Below are positions 23,051 through 48,735 of a stretch of 64,000 nucleotides of DNA, piece by piece; position 1 is the stretch's first letter; every line of letters begins with the position of its first letter. The translations under genes were made by a program, and so were the position numbers. Source of the stretch: Streptococcus tangpeifui (lineage in GTDB: Bacteria > Bacillota > Bacilli > Lactobacillales > Streptococcaceae); the NCBI RefSeq assembly GCF_011038795.1, contig NZ_JAAKDU010000006.1, forward strand, positions 60,004 through 124,003, written 5' to 3'. The notes below the pieces were generated by a model. It saw nothing but the letters and a program-made list of their open reading frames with translations. It had not been told where the DNA came from and did not search any database.

Positions 23051-23159
23051 TTGTCTAAACTTTTTGTATTTGTGAAAAAGTAAGGTAATCAAGCCGTCTA
23101 AAACTAAGTACTTAAGGAGTGGGATAGGCAGCTGCAGTCAAACTACCCTATTTAAAACA
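23051..23159 (+). repeat. Partial repeat fragment after the DUF975 gene
   Basis: The stretch 23114-23158 (AAGGAGTGGGATAGG, then GCAGTCAAACTACCCTATTT) resembles the end of the second module of the repeat family described at 23160, as if one older copy had been overwritten by a newer one. No gene is visible here. Confidence 0.4.
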
Positions 23160-23760
23160 GAGTGGGACTCAATCAGTAAACCGTGATTTATCACGGTTTT
23201 GATTTTCCTCGCTCTCCCGTTTTAAGGCTCAGGCCTCTGCCACTTTCTTATTTTTAGGTGGCAGGCTTTGGCAGTCTATCCCCAGATTGCCAAAGTCCAC
23301 TGGAGCATTTTGACACTTGCTTTGCAAGCTTTATTTCCCGATTAAAAAGCTCTACCAGAGCGTTTTAACCCACCTTCGCACAGCTCAAACATATTAAGAT
23401 TAGTAGTGATAAACTCCCCCGACGGGAGACAGTCCTCACTACTTTTTCTTTATGATAAAGTAGAGGAGTCTTGTTAAGTCGTAAGACCTTTTGAGGTTGG
23501 AAATAAGATGAACAAGCTTCATCAGATTAGTAACCTCCAACAGTTTGGAAAACTGTTGGAGCTATCACTTACGTGGTAATTAAACAGTCCTGTAGACTGT
23601 TTAAGGGGTGCCTGAAAATGAGACTGCGCCCTAGCCCCAAGATAAGGATCGCCAATCAGCAGTGGTTCATTGGTGCTAAAGCACCTAATGAACTGTGCAG
23701 GAGTAAGACTTGTTGGCATAGCCAACAAGTCTTACTCCCAGCCACTGCGTCAATCTAGTT
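23160..23760 (+). repeat. Multi-hairpin intergenic repeat, copy A (two modules)
   Basis: Module 1 (23160-23388) begins GAGTGGGACTCAATC, forms the hairpin AAACCGTGAT/ATCACGGTTT, and is about 80% identical by eye to 45951-46178. Module 2 (23579-23760) holds three hairpins in a row: TTAAACAGTC with GACTGTTTAA; TTCATTGGTGC with GCACCTAATGAA; and a perfect 16-bp stem AGTAAGACTTGTTGGC with its complement (23702-23736). It recurs at 30.7, 41.0, 46.4 and 48.6 kb. Short minus-strand ORFs within it are not conserved as protein in other copies, so I treat it as non-coding. Confidence 0.8.
23402..23561 (+). other. Hairpin-rich insert between the two modules of copy A
   Basis: AGTAGTGA (23402-23409) and TCACTACT (23436-23443) enclose an inner CTCCC/GGGAG stem and are followed by TTTTT, a good terminator shape. 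CTCCAACAGTTT (23535-23546) and AAACTGTTGGAG (23550-23561) then form a perfect 12-bp hairpin with a 3-nt loop. Copy D has unrelated sequence at this place. Confidence 0.5.
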
Positions 23761-23782
23761 AAATCTATAATCATGTTAACGA

Positions 23783-23808
23783 GACAGGACCTTGTCCAGT
23801 CTTTTTTT
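23783..23808 (+). terminator. Terminal hairpin of repeat copy A
   Basis: GAC-A-GGAC, loop CTT, GTCC-A-GTC, followed by seven T. It is terminator-like and stands just upstream of the polC promoter. Confidence 0.7.
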
Positions 23809-23965: not shown

Positions 23966-26900
23966 ATGTCAGAGCTATTTAAAAAATTGATGGAACAGAT
24001 TGAAATGCCGCTTGAGATGAGACAGTCTCAGGCCTTTTTGTCTGCTGATATCAAGGAAGTCAAGGTACATGCCCTTAGTCGTCAATGGGATTTTCATTTT
24101 AGTTTTGAGCAAATTTTACCGATTGCGCTCTATCAAGAGCTGGCTTATCGTCTTGTTTCGACCTTTAAGGCAGCAGATATTAAAGCTACCTTTACCATTG
24201 AGGCAGAAAATAGAGATTTTTCTGATTCTGATTTATTACAGGCCTACTATACAGAGAGTTTTAATCACCCCCTCTGCTCCAGTGCCAGCTTTCGCTCGAG
24301 CTTTTCAAATCTGACAGTCACCTATGATCCAACCAAGGAACAGATTCTTATCCATGCTCCAGGCTTTTTGAATAATGACCATTTTAAACAAAACCATTTG
24401 CCCAAGCTGGAACAGCAGTTTGCCCAATTTGGTTTTGGTCAGGTCTCTTTTGCCATTGAGGTTGATGAGGATAAGACGCAAGAGCTTACCCAAGCCTTTG
24501 AGTCCAGTCGACATAAGAAGATTGAGCAGGCTCAGGAAGAAAATGCCCAAGCGGTTGCTTCTTTGGAAGCTTCTATGCCAGCTCAGGAAGAGTCAGCGCC
24601 GGCTCCTCAATTTGATTACAAGGAAAGAGCAGCCAAACGTCAAGCTAGTTTTGATAAGGCGGAAATCACGCCTATGGTTGAGATTGAGACTGAGGAAAAC
24701 CGCATTGTCTTTGAGGGAATGGTTTTTGATGTGGAACGCCGGACGACGCGGACCGGCCGGCACATCATCAGCTTTAAGATGACCGACTACACTTCTTCCT
24801 TTGCTATGCAGAAGTGGGCTAAAGACGATAATGACCTCAAAAAGTACGACATCATTGCCAAAGGAGCCTGGCTCCGAGTTCGAGGAAATATTGAAAATAA
24901 CCAATGGACCAAGACTTTGACCATGAATGTGCAGGATGTGAAGGAAATTGTCCACAAGGAACGCAAAGATCTTATGCCTGAAGGACAGAAGCGGGTTGAG
25001 TTTCACGCTCATACTAATATGTCTACCATGGATGGTCTGCCTACGGTTGAACACTTGATTGACAAGGCGGCTAGTTGGGGCCATACAGCCGTTGCTATTA
25101 CCGATCATGGCAATGTGCAGAGCTTCCCTCATGGCTATCATCGAGCCAAAAAGGCTGGTATCAAGGCCATCTTTGGTTTAGAGGCTAATATCGTTGAAGA
25201 CCGGGTGCCAATCACCTATAATGAAGTGCCTATGGACTTACATGAAGCGACTTATGTTGTCTTTGACGTAGAAACCACGGGGTTATCTGCTGTTAACAAT
25301 TCCTTGATTCAAATTGCGGCTTCCAAGATGCACAAGGGCAATATCATTGATCAGTTCGATGAATTTATCAATCCTGGACATCCTTTGAGTCAATTTACGA
25401 CAGATTTGACAGGGATTACGGATAACCACCTTAAAGATGCCAAGCCCCTCTTGCAAGTTTTGCAAGAATTTCAGGAATTTTGTAAAGACACTGTCTTGGT
25501 AGCCCACAATGCCACCTTTGATGTAGGCTTTATGAATGCTAATTATGAGCGTCATGATCTGCCTACCATTACTCAGCCCGTTATTGATACTCTAGAGTTT
25601 GCCCGCAATCTCTATCCTGAATATAAGCGCCATGGTCTAGGGCCTCTCACTAAGCGTTTCCAAGTTGCCCTGGATCACCACCACATGGCCAACTACGATG
25701 CGGAAGCGACTGGACGTCTGCTCTTTATCTTCATCAAGGAAGCGCGTGAAAATCGTGGTATCAGTAATTTAGCTGATCTTAATACGAAATTAGTATCGGA
25801 AGATTCCTACAAAAAAGCCCGTGTCAAACATGCCACTATTTACGTGCAAAATCAGATTGGTCTTAAGAATATTTTCAAGCTGGTCAGTCTGTCTAATGTT
25901 AAATACTTTGAAGGTGTAGCTCGGATTCCCAGAACAGTGCTGGATCAGTATCGAGAAGGCTTGCTTTTGGGGTCGGCCTGCTCAGAAGGGGAGGTCTTCG
26001 ACGCTGTTCTTTCCCATGGGGTCGATAAGGCTCTCGAAGTGGCCAAGTATTATGATTTTATCGAGGTCATGCCACCAGCCATCTATCGCCCTCTGGTTGC
26101 CCGTGAGCTTATTAAAGATGAAGAGGGAATTCAGCAGGTTATCCGTGACTTGATTGAGGTTGGTCGCAAACTCAATAAGCCAGTTCTGGCAACAGGTGAT
26201 GTCCACTATCTTGAGCCGGAAGACCAGCTCTACCGAGAAATCATCGTCCGCAGTTTGGGTCCGGGGGCTATGATTAATCGTCCAATCGGCCGAGGTGAAG
26301 ATGCCCAACCCGCCCCCCTGCCGGATGCCCATTTCCGAACTACCAATGAAATGTTGGATGATTTCTCCTTTTTGGGTGAAGACTTAGCCTACGAAATCGT
26401 TGTAACCAATACACAAGAATTTGCGGAACGGTTTGAAGAAGTGGAAGTCGTCAAGAATGATCTCTATACGCCTTACATTGATAAAGCCGAAGAGACTGTT
26501 GCGGAAAAAACTTATGCCAGAGCCTTCGAAATTTATGGCAATCCTCTGCCGGATATTATTGATCGCCGTATTGAAAAGGAATTAACTTCTATTTTGGGAA
26601 ATGGTTTTGCCGTGATTTATTTGGCTTCCCAAATGTTGGTTGATCGCTCCAATAAGCGTGGCTATCTAGTCGGTTCACGGGGGTCTGTTGGATCTAGTTT
26701 TGTGGCGACCATGATTGGGATTACCGAGGTCAACCCTATGCCGCCTCATTACATCTGCCCAGACTGTCAGTATTCAGAATTCATCACCGATGGTTCGGTT
26801 GGATCAGGTTTTGACTTGCCGGACAAAGATTGTCCAAACTGCGGTCACAAGCTAACTAAGGATGGTCACGATATTCCCTTTGAAACCTTCCTAGGATTCG

Positions 26901-30613: not shown

Positions 30614-30635
30614 TACTAAAGCAATAGAAAAGAGT

Positions 30636-30852
30636 GTGGGACAGAAGTCGATTTTTTATATAAATTGACTTCGTCGTCCCACCTCCGTACAGTTGATTAA
30701 GAAGACCGCTAACAATTGCGGAGTAGTTAAACAGTCCAGTGGACTGTTTAAGGGGGTGCCTGAAATGCCAAGGTAAGGACTCCCAATTACTGCGTCAAAC
30801 TGTTATTACTGAAAAAATAGAAGGCTGGAATACTTTTTTCCAGCCTCTTTTT
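30636..30852 (+). repeat. Multi-hairpin intergenic repeat, copy B (shortened)
   Basis: It begins GAGTGTGGGACAGAAGTCG and forms an AAGTCGATTT/AAATTGACTT stem. It keeps module 2 from 30727 (TTAAACAGTCCAGTGGACTG) to ACTGCGTCAAACTG, but lacks the TTCATT and AGTAAGACTT hairpins. It ends with AGGCTGGAA (30822-30830) and TTCCAGCCT (30838-30846) followed by TTTTT, which serves as a terminator for the reductase gene. Confidence 0.75.
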
Positions 30853-38243: not shown

Positions 38244-40913
38244 ATGGCAAAAGCAACTAAAACTGCAGAACTCAGTGCTGAAGAATTGGCGCAACAGTAT
38301 ACAGGGGAACTTGTAGACAAAGCCGTAGAAGCTGAACGTGTTTATGCAACTTACTCTCAAGAGCAAGTTGATAAAATTGTTGCAGCTATGGCGCTTGCCG
38401 GTTCAGAAGCCGCTCTTGAACTGGCGAAAGAAGCACATGAGGAAACAGGTCGCGGTGTTATCGAGGATAAAGATACTAAAAATCACTTTGCGACAGAATA
38501 TGTTTATGAACGTATTAAAAATGAAAAAACGGTTGGCATTATTGGTGAAGATAAAGTAGCTGGCAGTATCCAAATTGCAGCCCCTCTTGGTGTTTTAGCT
38601 GGTATTGTACCAACAACTAACCCAACATCAACAACCATGTTCAAAATTTTGGTTGCTTTAAAGACACGCAATGCGATCGTCTTTGCCTTCCACCCATCAG
38701 CTCAAAAATGTTCAGCGCACGCCGCACAGATTCTCTACGATGCTGCGGTCAAAGCCGGTGCTCCTGAAAATATTGTTCAATGGATTGACACACCATCAAT
38801 CGCTAATACCAATGCCTTGATCTCAAATAAGAAAATTGCCTCCATCTTAGCAACCGGCGGCCCCGGCATGGTTAATGCAGCTCTTAAATCTGGTAACCCA
38901 TCAATGGGGGTTGGTGCTGGTAATGGTGCTGTTTATGTAGATGCAACGGCCCACCTTGATCGTGCAGTCGAAGATCTTCTTTTGTCAAAACGTTTTGATA
39001 ACGGCATGATTTGTGCAACAGAAAACTCAGCAGTAGTTGAAGCTCCAATTTACAAAGAATGGCTGGCTAAAATGCAGGAAAAAGGTGCTTACTTGGTACC
39101 TAAGAAAGACTATAAAAAACTTGAAGATTTCGTCTTCAATGACAATCACGGTGTTAACGGACCCGTTGCTGGTATGTCAGCTGCCTGGATTTGTGAACAC
39201 GCTGGTGTGAAATTACCAGAAGGTAAAGATGTGCTCTTGTTTGAATTGGACAAGAAAAACATTGGTGAAAAATTATCTTCAGAGAAGCTTTCTCCAATCC
39301 TTTCAGTTTATAAAGCGAAAGATCGCCAAGACGGTATCGAGATCGTGGCTGCTTTGCTTGATTATCAAGGTGCTGGTCACAACTGTGCTATCCAAATCGG
39401 TTCTCAAGCTGACCCATTCGTTACGGAATATGGTGATGCCCTTAATTCATCTCGTGTCTTGGTTAACCAGCCAGACTCAGTCGGTGGTATTGGTGATGTC
39501 TATACAGATGCACTGCAAGCCAGCTTAACTCTTGGAACAGGATCATGGGGGAAAAATTCATTGTCACACAATCTATCTACTGGCGACCTCTTGAACGTAA
39601 AAACTGTTGCGAAACGCCGTAACCGTCCTCAATGGATTCGTTTGCCAGAAAAAACTTACTACGAAAAGAATGCTATTTCTTATTTGCAAGATGCCTATGA
39701 ACCAATGACACGCGCCCTCATCGTTGCCGACCCGGGGATGGTTCAATTTGGTTTTGTTGATACGGTTTATGCGCAATTAGCACTTCGTGATGAAAAAGTG
39801 GTGACCTCACTTTATGGCACCATCAAGCCAGACCCAACTCTTGGTCAAACAATTGAAATCGCCAAACAAATGCGTGACTTCAAGCCTGATACCGTTATTG
39901 CTATCGGTGGTGGTTCTGCGATTGATGCCTCTAAGATTGCTCGTTTGATTTACGAAGTATCTCTTGATCGTGAAGAAGGATGGCTTGATGCTTATGAAAA
40001 TGTGAGTGAATTCTTCCTTGAATTGCAACAAAAATTCATCGATATCCGCAAACGTATTGTGAAGTTCAAACATCAAACAGAGACTCGTCTCTTCTGTATT
40101 CCAACAACATCAGGTACAGGTGCAGAGGTAACGCCGTTTGCTGTTATCACAGATGATTTCACACACGTGAAATACCCACTTGCCGACTATGAATTAACAC
40201 CTCAAGTCGCTATCGTTGATCCAGAGTTTGTTATGACTGTACCAAAACGTACAGCTGCTTGGTCAGGTCTTGACGCTTTATCACATGCCCTTGAATCTTA
40301 CGTATCTGTTATGGCGTCTGACTTTACACGTCCATGGTCACTTGAAGCTATCAAGTTAATCATCGAAAACTTGGAAGATGCTTATAACTATGATCCTAAG
40401 AATCCAACACTTCGCGGTGAACAAGCCAAAGAAAACATGCATTATGCTTCAACGCTTGCTGGTATGGCTTTCGGTAATGCCTTCCTTGGTATTAACCACT
40501 CACTGGCACACAAGACTGGTGGCGAATTCGGCCTTCCGCACGGCCTTGCTATCGCAATTGCCATGCAGCATGTTATTCGCTACAATGGCGTAGCAGGAAA
40601 TGTCAAACGTTCAGTTTACCCACGTTATGAAGAATACCGTGCACAGCGTGATTATGCAGATATTGCTCGAGCCCTTGGACTTGAAGGTAAAGACGATGCT
40701 GAATTGGTTGAAGCACTCTGCGCACGCATTGACAAGTTGATGCATGCAGTAGGTGTTGAACCAAAACTTTCAGCTAACGGGGTTACCAAGGAAGCCTTTG
40801 ACGCAGCTGTGGATCGTCTGGCTAGTTTGGCTTATGATGACCAATGTACACCAGCTAACCCACGTCAGCCATACATTGAAGATATGAAACAACTTTTGAT
40901 TGATCAATTCTAA
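38244..40913 (+). CDS. adhE: Bifunctional acetaldehyde-CoA / alcohol dehydrogenase
   Basis: This enzyme turns acetyl-CoA into ethanol in two NADH-using steps, regenerating NAD in fermentation. It is 889 residues and forms filaments (spirosomes) in relatives. Residues 1-440 are the aldehyde dehydrogenase half, with catalytic Cys257 in GMICATENS. Residues ~460-889 are the iron-dependent alcohol dehydrogenase half, with iron ligands in DALSHALESYVS and FLGINHSLAHKTGGEFGLPHG. I chose the ATG at 38244, preceded by TGGAGGA (38230-38236); the longer frame from 38184 starts within the leader. Expression should follow the Rex-like sites upstream. Fatty acid synthesis genes 14 kb downstream compete for the same acetyl-CoA. 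Confidence 0.97.
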   Translation: MAKATKTAELSAEELAQQYTGELVDKAVEAERVYATYSQEQVDKIVAAMALAGSEAALELAKEAHEETGRGVIEDKDTKNHFATEYVYERIKNEKTVGIIGEDKVAGSIQIAAPLGVLAGIVPTTNPTSTTMFKILVALKTRNAIVFAFHPSAQKCSAHAAQILYDAAVKAGAPENIVQWIDTPSIANTNALISNKKIASILATGGPGMVNAALKSGNPSMGVGAGNGAVYVDATAHLDRAVEDLLLSKRFDNGMICATENSAVVEAPIYKEWLAKMQEKGAYLVPKKDYKKLEDFVFNDNHGVNGPVAGMSAAWICEHAGVKLPEGKDVLLFELDKKNIGEKLSSEKLSPILSVYKAKDRQDGIEIVAALLDYQGAGHNCAIQIGSQADPFVTEYGDALNSSRVLVNQPDSVGGIGDVYTDALQASLTLGTGSWGKNSLSHNLSTGDLLNVKTVAKRRNRPQWIRLPEKTYYEKNAISYLQDAYEPMTRALIVADPGMVQFGFVDTVYAQLALRDEKVVTSLYGTIKPDPTLGQTIEIAKQMRDFKPDTVIAIGGGSAIDASKIARLIYEVSLDREEGWLDAYENVSEFFLELQQKFIDIRKRIVKFKHQTETRLFCIPTTSGTGAEVTPFAVITDDFTHVKYPLADYELTPQVAIVDPEFVMTVPKRTAAWSGLDALSHALESYVSVMASDFTRPWSLEAIKLIIENLEDAYNYDPKNPTLRGEQAKENMHYASTLAGMAFGNAFLGINHSLAHKTGGEFGLPHGLAIAIAMQHVIRYNGVAGNVKRSVYPRYEEYRAQRDYADIARALGLEGKDDAELVEALCARIDKLMHAVGVEPKLSANGVTKEAFDAAVDRLASLAYDDQCTPANPRQPYIEDMKQLLIDQF

Positions 40914-40934
40914 GGTACAATCGGATAAACTAGA

Positions 40935-40965
40935 AGAAGGCTGGACAAGAATTCGTCCAGTCTTC
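40935..40965. terminator. adhE-proximal hairpin, terminal hairpin of inverted repeat copy C
   Basis: GAAGGCTGGAC and GTCCAGTCTTC pair over 11 positions (one G-T) with an 8-nt loop, followed by CCTATTTT. It probably stops adhE transcription. Confidence 0.7.
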
Positions 40966-41206
40966 CTATTTTGGAACAAACTCTTGGCGCAGCAGTTGAG
41001 AGTAAGACTTCTTCGTAACCAACAAATCTTACCCTTGCATAGTTCATAGGTGCTTTAGCCTCTATGAACTGCTGCTGGCAGTTTTTCCTTTTGCCGCAAG
41101 GCCAAAGTGGAAAACCTAGCCAATTGTGCAGAGGATAGTGGGATAACAAAATCAAAATCGTGATTTTATCACAATTTACTGATTTTTGTCCCACTCTCCT
41201 CTTTTT
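40935..41206 (-). repeat. Multi-hairpin intergenic repeat, copy C (inverted)
   Basis: Read on the minus strand it begins GAGAGTGGGACAAAAATCAG, forms a TGTGATAAAATCACG hairpin and shares with copy E the block from GCACAATTGG through CCACTTTGGCCTTG to GCAAGGGTAAG. It then keeps AGTAAGACTT-type pairing (GGTAAGATTT with GAAGTCTTACT) and ends in the GGCTGGAC hairpin next to adhE. This is the only copy in reverse orientation. Confidence 0.72.
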
Positions 41207-45857: not shown

Positions 45858-45950
45858 GCTAAGCCTAAGTTTTGTGCTTTACTCTTGTTAGGTAAATACT
45901 TGTCTAGTTCTTGATGACAGTGGACTTTGAGAAATCTGAGAATATTATGA

Positions 45951-46585
45951 GAGGGGACTCAATCGATAAATCGTCATGAAAGGCGATTTCGATTTTCCTC
46001 GCTCTCCTATTTTAAGGCTCAGGTCTCTGCTGCTTTCTTATTTTTAGGTGGTGGGCTTTGGCAGTCTATCCCCAGACTGCCAAAGCCCACTGGAGCATTT
46101 TGACACTTGCTTTGCAAGCTTTATTTCCCGATTAAAAAGCTCTACCAGAGCTTTCTAACCCACCTCCGCACAGTTTAATCAAGACATAAAGCTGCTAAGC
46201 CTGCAAAGGAATTTAGGAAAATCGACGCAGGTGTAAAACACCTGAGAGATTTTATACTGTCAGAGCCATATTTGTAAAGTACTAAAGCACCAACAACTAT
46301 GTCTCTAATTCCACAGCACTGTAGGCGTGCTCGATTATTAGCTATCTCTTGTATGGCACTTAAACAGTTCAGTGGACGGTTTAAGAGGGACGCCTGAAAA
46401 TGGGACTGCGCCCCAAGATAAGGACTTCCAATCATCAGTGGTTCAGTGGTATTAAAGTACCTAATGAACTGTGCAAGAGTAAGACTTCTCGGCATAACTA
46501 ACAAGTCTTACTCCTAACCACTGCGTCAAACTACTCTATCTAAACTAGTTAATAGGAGGCAGGACTTTTGTCCCACCCTCTGACT
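45951..46585 (+). repeat. Multi-hairpin intergenic repeat, copy D (two modules)
   Basis: Module 1 (45951-46178) matches copy A closely from GGGACTCAATC through CCTCGCTCTCC, GGCAGTCTATCCCCAGA and TTTGACACTTGCTTTGCAAG to CCGCACAGTTTAAT. Module 2 (46358-46545) keeps TTAAACAGTTC, CCAAGATAAGGA, CCTAATGAACTGTGCAAG, the AGTAAGACTT/AAGTCTTACT stem (46477-46512) and CACTGCGTCAAACTA. The terminal hairpin GGCAGGAC, TTTT, GTCCCACC lies at about 46558-46579. The 180 bp between modules is unrelated to copy A. The cysS start follows at once. Confidence 0.8.
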
Positions 46586-47949: not shown

Positions 47950-48349
47950 AGTCAATGTCAATCTCATAAACGGTATCGCCCTAGCTTTTGAGGGAGATGC
48001 TGTTTACTCCCTCTATATTCGCCGTCACCTGATTTTTCAAGGACAGACTAAACCTAACCTGCTTCATCGTCTAGCTACTCACTATGTATCAGCCAAGGCT
48101 CAAGCTATGCTGATTGAGGCCATGCTGAACCGCAATCTTTTAACGGAAGAAGAAGTGGTTATTTATAAGCGGGGCCGTAATGCACACAGCCATACTAAGG
48201 CTAAAAACACCGATATTATCACCTACAAGATGTCAACCGGTTTTGAAGCCATCATGGGGTATCTCCACATGACTGAACAAATCACCCGACTGGAGGAACT
48301 GATTGACTGGTGTATCAGTTATGTCGAAGAAAATAGGGGGAAAAAATAA
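47942..48349 (+). CDS. mrnC: Mini-ribonuclease III
   Basis: This 135-residue double-strand RNA endonuclease has the RNase III catalytic domain but no dsRNA-binding domain, and matures 23S rRNA in B. subtilis. The signature LINGIALAFEGDAVYSLYIRRHLI contains the catalytic acidic residues, and RNAHSHTKAKNTDIITYKMSTGFEA the second acidic cluster. It starts with GTG at 47942, inside the end of cysS (8-bp overlap), so it is translationally coupled. The cysS-mrnC pairing is conserved across Firmicutes. Confidence 0.95.
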   Translation: MTKVNVNLINGIALAFEGDAVYSLYIRRHLIFQGQTKPNLLHRLATHYVSAKAQAMLIEAMLNRNLLTEEEVVIYKRGRNAHSHTKAKNTDIITYKMSTGFEAIMGYLHMTEQITRLEELIDWCISYVEENRGKK

Positions 48350-48352
48350 AAG

Positions 48353-48401
48353 AGCTAGACTCAATTGTTAGGACAAAGCTAACAATTGAGTCTAGCTTTT
48401 T
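48353..48401 (+). terminator. Strong terminator after mrnC
   Basis: AGCTAGACTCAATTGTTAG (48353-48371) and its exact 19-nt complement (48379-48397), 7-nt loop, T run. It closes the pnp/cysS gene string. Confidence 0.92.
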
Positions 48402-48474: not shown

Positions 48475-48735
48475 CAGCACAGCGTTTGAAAGTGATTTAT
48501 CACACGAAAAAAGTTTCCTCCTAAACTTCCTTTCCCGCACAGTTGGATTGGATTTCCGCTTTGGTCTTGTGACAAAGAAAAGCTAGCCAGCAGTGGTTTA
48601 TTGGTGCTAAGCACCTAATGAACTGTGCAAGGGTAAGGCTTCTTGGTATAGCAACAAGTCTTACCCACCTGTGTCCGTCTGATAAATCTAGAGTCATAAC
48701 AAAAGAGGCAAGACTTTTATCTCGACCTCTTGTTG
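48475..48735 (+). repeat. Multi-hairpin intergenic repeat, copy E
   Basis: It has a GTGATTTATCACAC segment, then GCACAGTTGGATTGG, TTTCCGCTTTGGTCTTG, CAGCAGTGGTTTATTGGTGC and CACCTAATGAACTGTGCAAG, and a stem GGTAAGGCTT/AAGTCTTACC (48628-48665). Compared with copies A and D, AGTAAGACTT changes to GGTAAGGCTT while the partner changes at its end to ACC, keeping pairing (one G-T). The terminal hairpin AAGAGGCAAGA/TCTCGACCTCTT (48701-48732) also reads as a dacA terminator on the minus strand. Confidence 0.75.

Follow-up and report, generated by a model that had tools for sequence, protein, structure and literature searches.

The window, a stretch of 64,000 nucleotides of Streptococcus tangpeifui DNA, contains five hairpin-rich blocks (A to E) that lie between genes, which raises the question of what kind of repeat they represent and how such a repeat comes to occupy its sites. 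We regard A to E as copies of a BOX-type repeat built of nested hairpins, whose family probably spreads by replacing resident hairpins, often predicted terminators.

Five related copies and their modules

In pairwise blastn, the five blocks are related to each other far beyond chance: A and D are 88% identical over 233 nt (2e-83) and 82% over 200 nt (2e-52), A and E 82% over 118 nt (6e-26), C and E 79% over 131 nt (5e-23), and A and B 84% over 58 nt (7e-13). An earlier sequence-only reading, which had described five related intergenic blocks, had placed all of them close to the limits in Table 1, which were refined from module profile matches and by reading of the sequence. Its picture of a modular, multi-hairpin, intergenic and multi-copy element with variable orientation and content is upheld by the module annotation; the view of copy B as the odd one out has to be given up, since B, though coreless, contains the family's middle module and its 3' end, and the stretch 23387-23494 within A is of foreign origin. 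The ORF downstream of A is presumably polC-like, and that just downstream of D is one that we take to be cysS-like. A bidirectional terminator-like hairpin with a 20-pair stem (48352-48398), located after an ORF that ends at 48349, adjoins copy E.

Table 1. Parts of the five window copies, followed by the sites at which filled and element-free alleles were compared
Feature	Position	Strand	Remarks
Copy A, composite element	23160..23802	+	Upstream of 1468-aa ORF at 23966
A, long 5' module (T5long)	23159..23382	+	Terminal GAGTGGGAC hairpin, more hairpins, then CCACCTTCGCACAG
A, 5' non-coding end of IS110-family IS (first 107 nt)	23387..23494	+	Apparently in loop of boxB-like hairpin (CTCAAA..GACCTTTTGAG)
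A, boxB-like module	23480..23545	+	TTTTGAGGTTGGAAATAAGATGAAC..
A, middle two-hairpin module (Hmid)	23576..23657	+	TTAAACAGTCC..AGACTGTTTAA
A, core module	23659..23752	+	Read as inverted mini-element nested in hairpin 2
A, 3' terminal hairpin, then T-tract	23783..23802	+	From sequence
Copy B, compact, without core	30632..30847	+	Sequence and module profiles
B, short 5' module	30632..30723	+	
B, middle module	30723..30787	+	
B, 3' hairpin module	30789..30846	+	
Copy C	40936..41198	-	Sequence and module profiles
C, 5' hairpin	41139..41198	-	
C, linker	41064..41122	-	
C, core	40985..41075	-	
C, 3' hairpin module	40938..40992	-	
Copy D	45949..46581	+	Directly upstream of 452-aa ORF
D, long 5' module	45949..46172	+	
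D, unique insert		+	Between long 5' and middle modules
D, middle module	46358..46433	+	
D, core	46436..46527	+	
D, 3' hairpin	about 46555..46581	+	
Copy E, 5' end decayed	about 48476..48729	+	Sequence and module profiles
E, decayed 5' part		+	
E, linker	48547..48601	+	
E, core	48590..48667	+	
E, 3' hairpin	48700..48729	+	
Site 1	S. dysgalactiae phage Javan122		Versus Javan618 (98.5% identical), phi-SsuFJNP8 and phiD12 record; hairpin GGTGACAGAAGTACTGCCACCT
Site 2	G022 L364:3152-3321		TTCTATATTTATTATATAGAA in G014; one arm base changed in G132 and G142
Site 3	G022 L364:10892-11176		Versus G132 (AGGTTGG..CCAACC); weaker hairpins in G142 and G016
Site 4	G022 L362:920-1089		Versus G014, GAGACTGGAAACTCCAGTCTC; flanks 97.5% and 100%
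Site 5	G014 L545 and G132 L547		Versus G158, G016 and G022; AAGTAACT..AGTTACTT
Site 6	G022 L559:6005-6290		Versus G132 and G142 (GAGCGG..CCGCTC) and G146 (variant)
Weaker site	L362:18209		Versus G146; left flank match just 23 nt
Weaker site	L552/L553		Versus G087; flanks partly unaligned

The elements follow a fixed order of hairpin 1 (GAGAGTGGGAC...GTCCCACC), hairpin 2 (CCGCACAGTTGATTAGG...CCAATCAACCACTGCG) and hairpin 3 (...CCAGCCTC). In its long form, hairpin 2 has the feet CCGCACAGTTGA and CAACCACTGCG and may carry boxB-like, middle, linker and core modules inside. The outer ends, GAGAGTGGGAC../..CCAGCCTC, are imperfect inverted repeats that agree at about 9 of 13 nt by reading. Relatives, the S. 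suis genome G022 and the phages phiD12 and Javan122 have a compact form of approx. 170 nt, a plan that the window forms extend by extra modules.

The strong secondary structure expected of a miniature inverted-repeat element (MITE) is evident in the folding of copies A (641 nt; z of -6.9 against 20 shuffles) and B (217 nt; z of -7.2 against 200 shuffles) and in the pair counts of the core. For the core, 43 near-full-length sequences from the 65 clusters that have one were aligned. RNAalifold yields only 6 pairs from this alignment because the arms are misaligned, and in the named core structure 89.4% of cells are paired, compared with 31.6-43.0% when it is slid and 88.8% in column shuffles. 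Covariation supports the core structure weakly (0.124 vs 0.111; 6/500). The simplest units (e.g., C17:12216-12293) are terminator-like palindromes, and copies are predicted from structure and position to act as terminators.

None of the window matches an Rfam family at the gathering score, and the five copies have no blastn match in the 80 loci listed from a wider contig scan that yielded few streptococci. Degraded coding insertion sequences, an origin that would have counted against the earlier reading, were set aside as a source of the blocks: the only IS-derived part is the 107-nt piece of A, and the other clusters are intergenic. ORFs of at least 80 aa lie over C (40910-41194, minus strand) and D (46175-46504, minus strand), and none lies over A, B, or E.

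Copies across the genome

The expectation that five copies in the window meant many in the genome is borne out by own-genome BLASTN and iterated module profiles, which identify at least 84 repeat clusters in the 2.25-Mb genome, amounting to 29,344 bases (1.3%). The profiles were run on stretches fetched around BLAST matches (287,344 bases), and the count of clusters is a lower bound. Four own-genome BLAST searches, with at most 40 candidates scored in each, gave at least 83, at least 55, at least 77, and at least 40 pieces; 165 of these 255 were entered, short inverted self-matches and already covered pieces being omitted, and they formed 90 clusters. With constant offsets of 16272 and 64967, matches on contig C4 recur at the start of C11 and the end of C21, respectively. 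C4 is apparently a contig overlapping these two, so that its matches count twice, and it was left out of the 84. Among the 84 clusters, the core occurs in 65, the long 5' module in 59, the middle module in 46, the linker in 37, the T3 3' module in 36, the boxB-like module in 33, and the short 5' module in 26.

With respect to genes, as predicted by a simple ORF caller, 59 clusters lie between tandem genes (31 in the direction of the genes and 28 against it), 17 between convergent and 3 between divergent genes, 4 at contig edges, and 1 within a called ORF. The excess of convergent over divergent positions is significant (p = 0.0026), and the available text of Croucher et al. 2011 (PMC3049150) describes BOX, RUP, and SPRITE as likewise enriched between convergent genes. 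Target-site duplications are not obvious at the element ends in this genome. An IS200/IS605-like mode of insertion was set aside, as no conserved 5' neighbour is seen by eye across the 47 listed 5' ends.

Window sites in the closest relatives

By the CysS-like protein, the closest of 147 genomes of the genus (own included) are G120 (94%) and G059 (93%), and the window region is collinear in both. At none of the five sites is the window copy present as such in either genome. The copies are therefore lineage-specific rather than fixed at orthologous sites in all relatives, an outcome that would have spoken against the earlier proposal of a mobile element. Terminator-like hairpins are seen by eye at sites A, B, and E in both relatives and at C and D in G059; at site B, AAACTCCTCAGGCTCAGAATAAGCTTGAGGAGTTTT stands in the place of the copy in both. 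In G120, site C has a family member of its own in the opposite orientation; near site A, 34 nt of this genome match one of the hairpins of the long 5' module. As the relatives are approx. 80% identical in DNA, the junctions at the window sites are inexact. Where the window has D, G120 (L422/L423) appears by eye to have an extra gene or open stretch of approx. 200 codons.

Relationship to BOX-type repeats

S. suis has two BOX-type families according to the available text of Croucher et al. (PMC3049150), one bounded by boxA and boxC (about 50 nt each) and one by boxE and boxF (115 and 133 nt), both with boxB. Judged from their sequence, the repeats described here are homologues of these BOX-type elements of S. 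suis and most likely represent the E/F family of Croucher et al. 2011, enlarged by extra modules; this assignment follows from exclusion of the A-C type and from the size of the 5' module, and the size of the 3' module fits it less well. In particular, the mean boxE length of 115 nt reported there (PMC3049150) compares with 107-122 nt for full-length 5' matches in S. suis G022, whereas boxF of 133 nt compares with a plain 3' part of approx. 65-70 nt (by reading), or about 150 nt with the core. BoxB is placed there between the outer modules (PMC3049150), as is a boxB-like module, FH, in 33 of the 84 clusters, and the match of FH to the pBM407 element is equalled by 2 of 1000 shuffles. Compared with the S. 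suis E/F elements, the window species adds the long 5' module, Hmid, core, and linker, forms clusters of up to approx. 700 nt, and has nested elements. The accessible part of the paper (PMC3049150) reports no target structure for the E/F family, whose elements are recognised here from the published description.

The sequence-only reading had separated the blocks from pneumococcal BOX. This stands insofar as they are not A-B-C elements, but they are still BOX-type repeats, with boxB-like modules and homology to elements of S. suis. A boxB-like hairpin with GAGGTTG is shared with pneumococcal BOX (A-B-C) and with the S. suis BOX A-C type (RepSU1), whereas the outer modules boxA and boxC of pneumococcal BOX differ from the outer ends here, by reading against the BOX stretch in L358. 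The boxB-like module has a 10-nt identity to boxB of a presumed BOX stretch in an S. pseudopneumoniae satellite phage (7 of 1000 shuffles as good), a stretch that was located with a BOX query. Repetitive hairpin-forming elements reportedly occur in sponge mitochondria too; these are likewise mobile, but mitochondrial. SPRITE elements of S. pneumoniae are terminator-like and enriched between convergent genes according to the available text (PMC3049150), and the simplest units here are terminator-like as well.

Distribution across streptococci and phages

The genome G022 matches the chromosomal flank in the prophage record of S. suis ZJ20091101 at 946 of 946 bases and was therefore taken as S. 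suis. An E-F element used as the query finds 72 matching pieces in G022, and all ten chosen genomes match it, with 3 to 94 pieces each; copies also occur in two named records of S. suis, phiD12 and pBM407. With copy A as the query and at most 9 candidates scored per genome, at least 14 of 59 genomes match (own included), in most of them only through the IS110 piece, and the core matches outside the own genome, among those listed, come from G021 and G026. Six of eight chosen genomes match: G021 with 64 pieces, G059 with 37, G065 with 33, G026 with 15, G161 with 6, and G120 with one weak piece, whereas in G074 and G033 this search found no match. In G021, identity reaches 93% for the core but just 73% for the CysS-like protein, and we infer that copies pass between species, e.g., on phages. 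In the close relative G059, two cores stand against 27 listed matches (96-100%, 22-25 nt) to a single piece of the boxB-like module; a boxB-bearing repeat may have expanded separately there.

Filled and element-free alleles

How such elements enter a site can be read from genomes that differ in their presence. Eight E/F-type sites from the S. suis clade and one S. dysgalactiae phage, rather than from the window species, were compared (Table 1), and in all eight the element stands in place of a hairpin of 21-34 nt; six of the comparisons are clean and two weaker. None of the six clean pairs has a target-site duplication, and in each the resident hairpin is lost. The 21-nt limits at sites 2 and 4 come from flank alignment alone, and the other limits were trimmed by reading. 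For site 1, three element-free phage records were examined among 58 listed. At site 2, the flanks are exact in G014, G132, and G142, and G146, G087, and G139 have the hairpin with a different right neighbour. Site 4 is comparable in one other genome only, so that its hairpin could be a collapsed element.

The resident hairpins at sites 1 to 6 have folding energies of -7.9, -5.0, -7.1, -13.1, -11.5, and -10.5 kcal/mol, and those at the weaker sites -2.4 and -8.0 kcal/mol. Depending on the hairpin, 0 to 44 of 2000 letter shuffles fold as well, and among random 22-nt stretches of the same loci, 202 of 4000 reach -5 and 34 of 4000 reach -7 kcal/mol. Some genomes have imperfect versions of the hairpins at sites 2, 3, and 6.

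As a control, a BOX A-C type element of 161 nt (L362:13092-13252) was treated with the same script, and its flanks overlap by 2 nt in the empty genomes G139 and G146, with nothing lost. The method thus detects duplications where they are present, and the A-C type, with its 2-nt duplication in these genomes, differs in this respect from the E/F-type family. The outer ends of this element are TATAGTCGAATGAATTAG../..GTTAATTCAAATGACTATA.

At the weaker site L362:18209, the outer junctions are the same in G022, G132, and G016, but the versions are 170, 402, and 348 nt long, which points to growth or shrinkage in place via changes inside the hairpins. Loci outside the count of eight are L409-L412 at site 4 (with a differing right flank), L414, L415, and L417 (with a differing left flank), L413 (without a flank), L371 (with a single flank), L549 (edge), and the two elements of L363, L551:8005, L552:1819, and L558 (no comparable allele). 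Matches to boxB only (L399, L403, and L404) were excluded because boxB also belongs to the A-C type; the L403/L404 array has a different 107-nt allele in G132.

Mode of spread

A literature search that covered few subscription papers found no report of hairpin replacement by BOX-type repeats; the available text of Croucher et al. (PMC3049150) cites a proposed IS link for BOX and gives no comparable empty site for SPRITE. From the hairpin that stands in the place of the element at all eight sites, we infer that the family probably spreads by swapping in for existing hairpins. Most economically, the swap would be directed by the hairpin and take place in the course of replication or repair: a stem-loop exposed as a single strand would be cut at its foot or skipped there, and a repair or replication activity of the host, or else a putative trans-acting enzyme, would copy the element, a closed multi-hairpin, into the gap. 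As the element ends in terminator-like hairpins of its own, the gene would remain terminated and the cost of insertion would be low. Replacement of this kind would explain the position at gene ends, the low cost to the host, the modular growth, and the lack of clean duplications; if it is true, genes could exchange their terminators for mobile ones in the course of terminator evolution. The repeat is of a known kind, BOX-type, and new in its size, modules, and nesting, with a proposed mode of spread that would be new as well.

The main rival is homologous or micro-homologous recombination between imported or ectopic DNA bearing an element and a similar terminator, by means of the common A-tract, G-rich and C-rich arms, and T-tract; no hairpin-directed step would be needed, and loss of the hairpin would be a by-product. 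Streptococci are often naturally competent, and, by reading, the element ends share 2-8 nt with the arms of the hairpins of sites 1, 3, and 4, so that ordinary recombination between terminators could explain these three sites. It could not cover site 2, where TTCTATATTTATTATATAGAA, with limits set by flank alignment alone, has no evident likeness to GGGAGTGGG../..CAGCCTC, and as a general account we consider it unlikely.

The sequence-only reading had proposed an element of MITE type, a view that is supported in part. The imperfect terminal inverted repeats agree with it, as do the presence of elements within elements at one point and the 2-nt duplication made by the BOX A-C type element in the same genomes. 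A classical MITE, however, would be bounded by terminal inverted repeats, and an IS transposase would move it in trans and duplicate the target site, a mode that has been proposed for BOX and RUP of pneumococci, whereas all six clean pairs show loss of a hairpin in place of a duplication, and the copies are not AT-rich (43.9% GC vs 41.8% in the fetched stretches); such an origin is doubtful indeed. Finally, vertically inherited functional 3'-UTR structures, i.e., complex terminators that decay or grow in place without moving, would suit the position at gene 3' ends and the terminator-like ends, but they are highly improbable in view of the absence of the same copies at five of five sites in both closest relatives, the occurrence of similar elements at numerous loci and in distant species, and the existence of both filled and empty alleles among genomes with flanks of 90-98% identity.

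Nested elements and an IS110-family guest

The repeat also has a nested architecture. In G021, CCAATCA and ACCACTGCG border the core; the two are directly joined in S. suis G022 and in core-less copies of the window genome. The reverse complement of the core consensus resembles the joint of hairpins 1 and 2 of the E-F element with a score of 35, reached by 0 of 1000 shuffles (best 28), vs 13 for the forward strand; against window copy B it scores 18, which is not significant (124 of 1000 shuffles as good). Given this likeness on the opposite strand, the best reading of the core is that of an inverted mini-element within the outer hairpin. Moreover, by a rule-based count, 11 of the 84 clusters have a second element in the apex of the core, in place of its usual apical hairpin GGTGCTTTAGCACC and with the junction TTCATTA[element]AATGAACC or one very similar. 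As one junction is common to all 11, they may descend from a single ancestral event.

The repeats also serve an IS110-family element as a landing site. Positions 23387-23494 match the start of such an element, mostly at 81-89% identity, and the CDS behind this start carries the annotation of an IS110 transposase in S. salivarius and of a mobile element protein in phages of S. suis. Besides copy A, the own genome has the IS110 piece at C10:18400 and at C10:3838. Related IS copies were followed at 19 loci of the S. suis clade (L375-L393: 17 in G014, 1 in G016, and 1 in G132), a subset of the pieces listed; 12 of these lie in the hairpin 1 loop of an E/F element, as GGGAGTGGGAAAGAACTCGACTGGT[IS]AGAGTTCG and variants, and 7 do not, with L391 judged from one side only. 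L392 and L393 have common flanks, which leaves 11 of 18 independent sites. In G022, the IS adjoins an element and is not inside it. REP/BIME palindromic repeats are a target of the IS110-family IS621 according to the available text of PMC11208160, and here it is the loop of hairpin 1 that the IS enters. According to the same text, bridge RNA is mostly encoded in the left end of IS110-group elements (PMC11208160), and by analogy 23387-23494 may include a partial bridge-RNA region.

It is possible, and we put it forward tentatively, that the family is a structure-targeting mobile repeat that precisely exchanges stem-loops, chiefly terminators, for a larger multi-hairpin with a terminator of its own. 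The result would be recursive elements of Russian-doll type, which in their turn would host bridge-RNA-guided IS110 elements. Such a repeat would insert into its own hairpins repeatedly because it contains stem-loops itself.

A further hairpin-in-hairpin arrangement occurs in the own genome (L264-L267), where a mini-repeat of approx. 60 nt (ACAGCCATGATGGCT..GAAGATTACGTATAA) follows GAGAGTGGGACA within several 5' hairpins.
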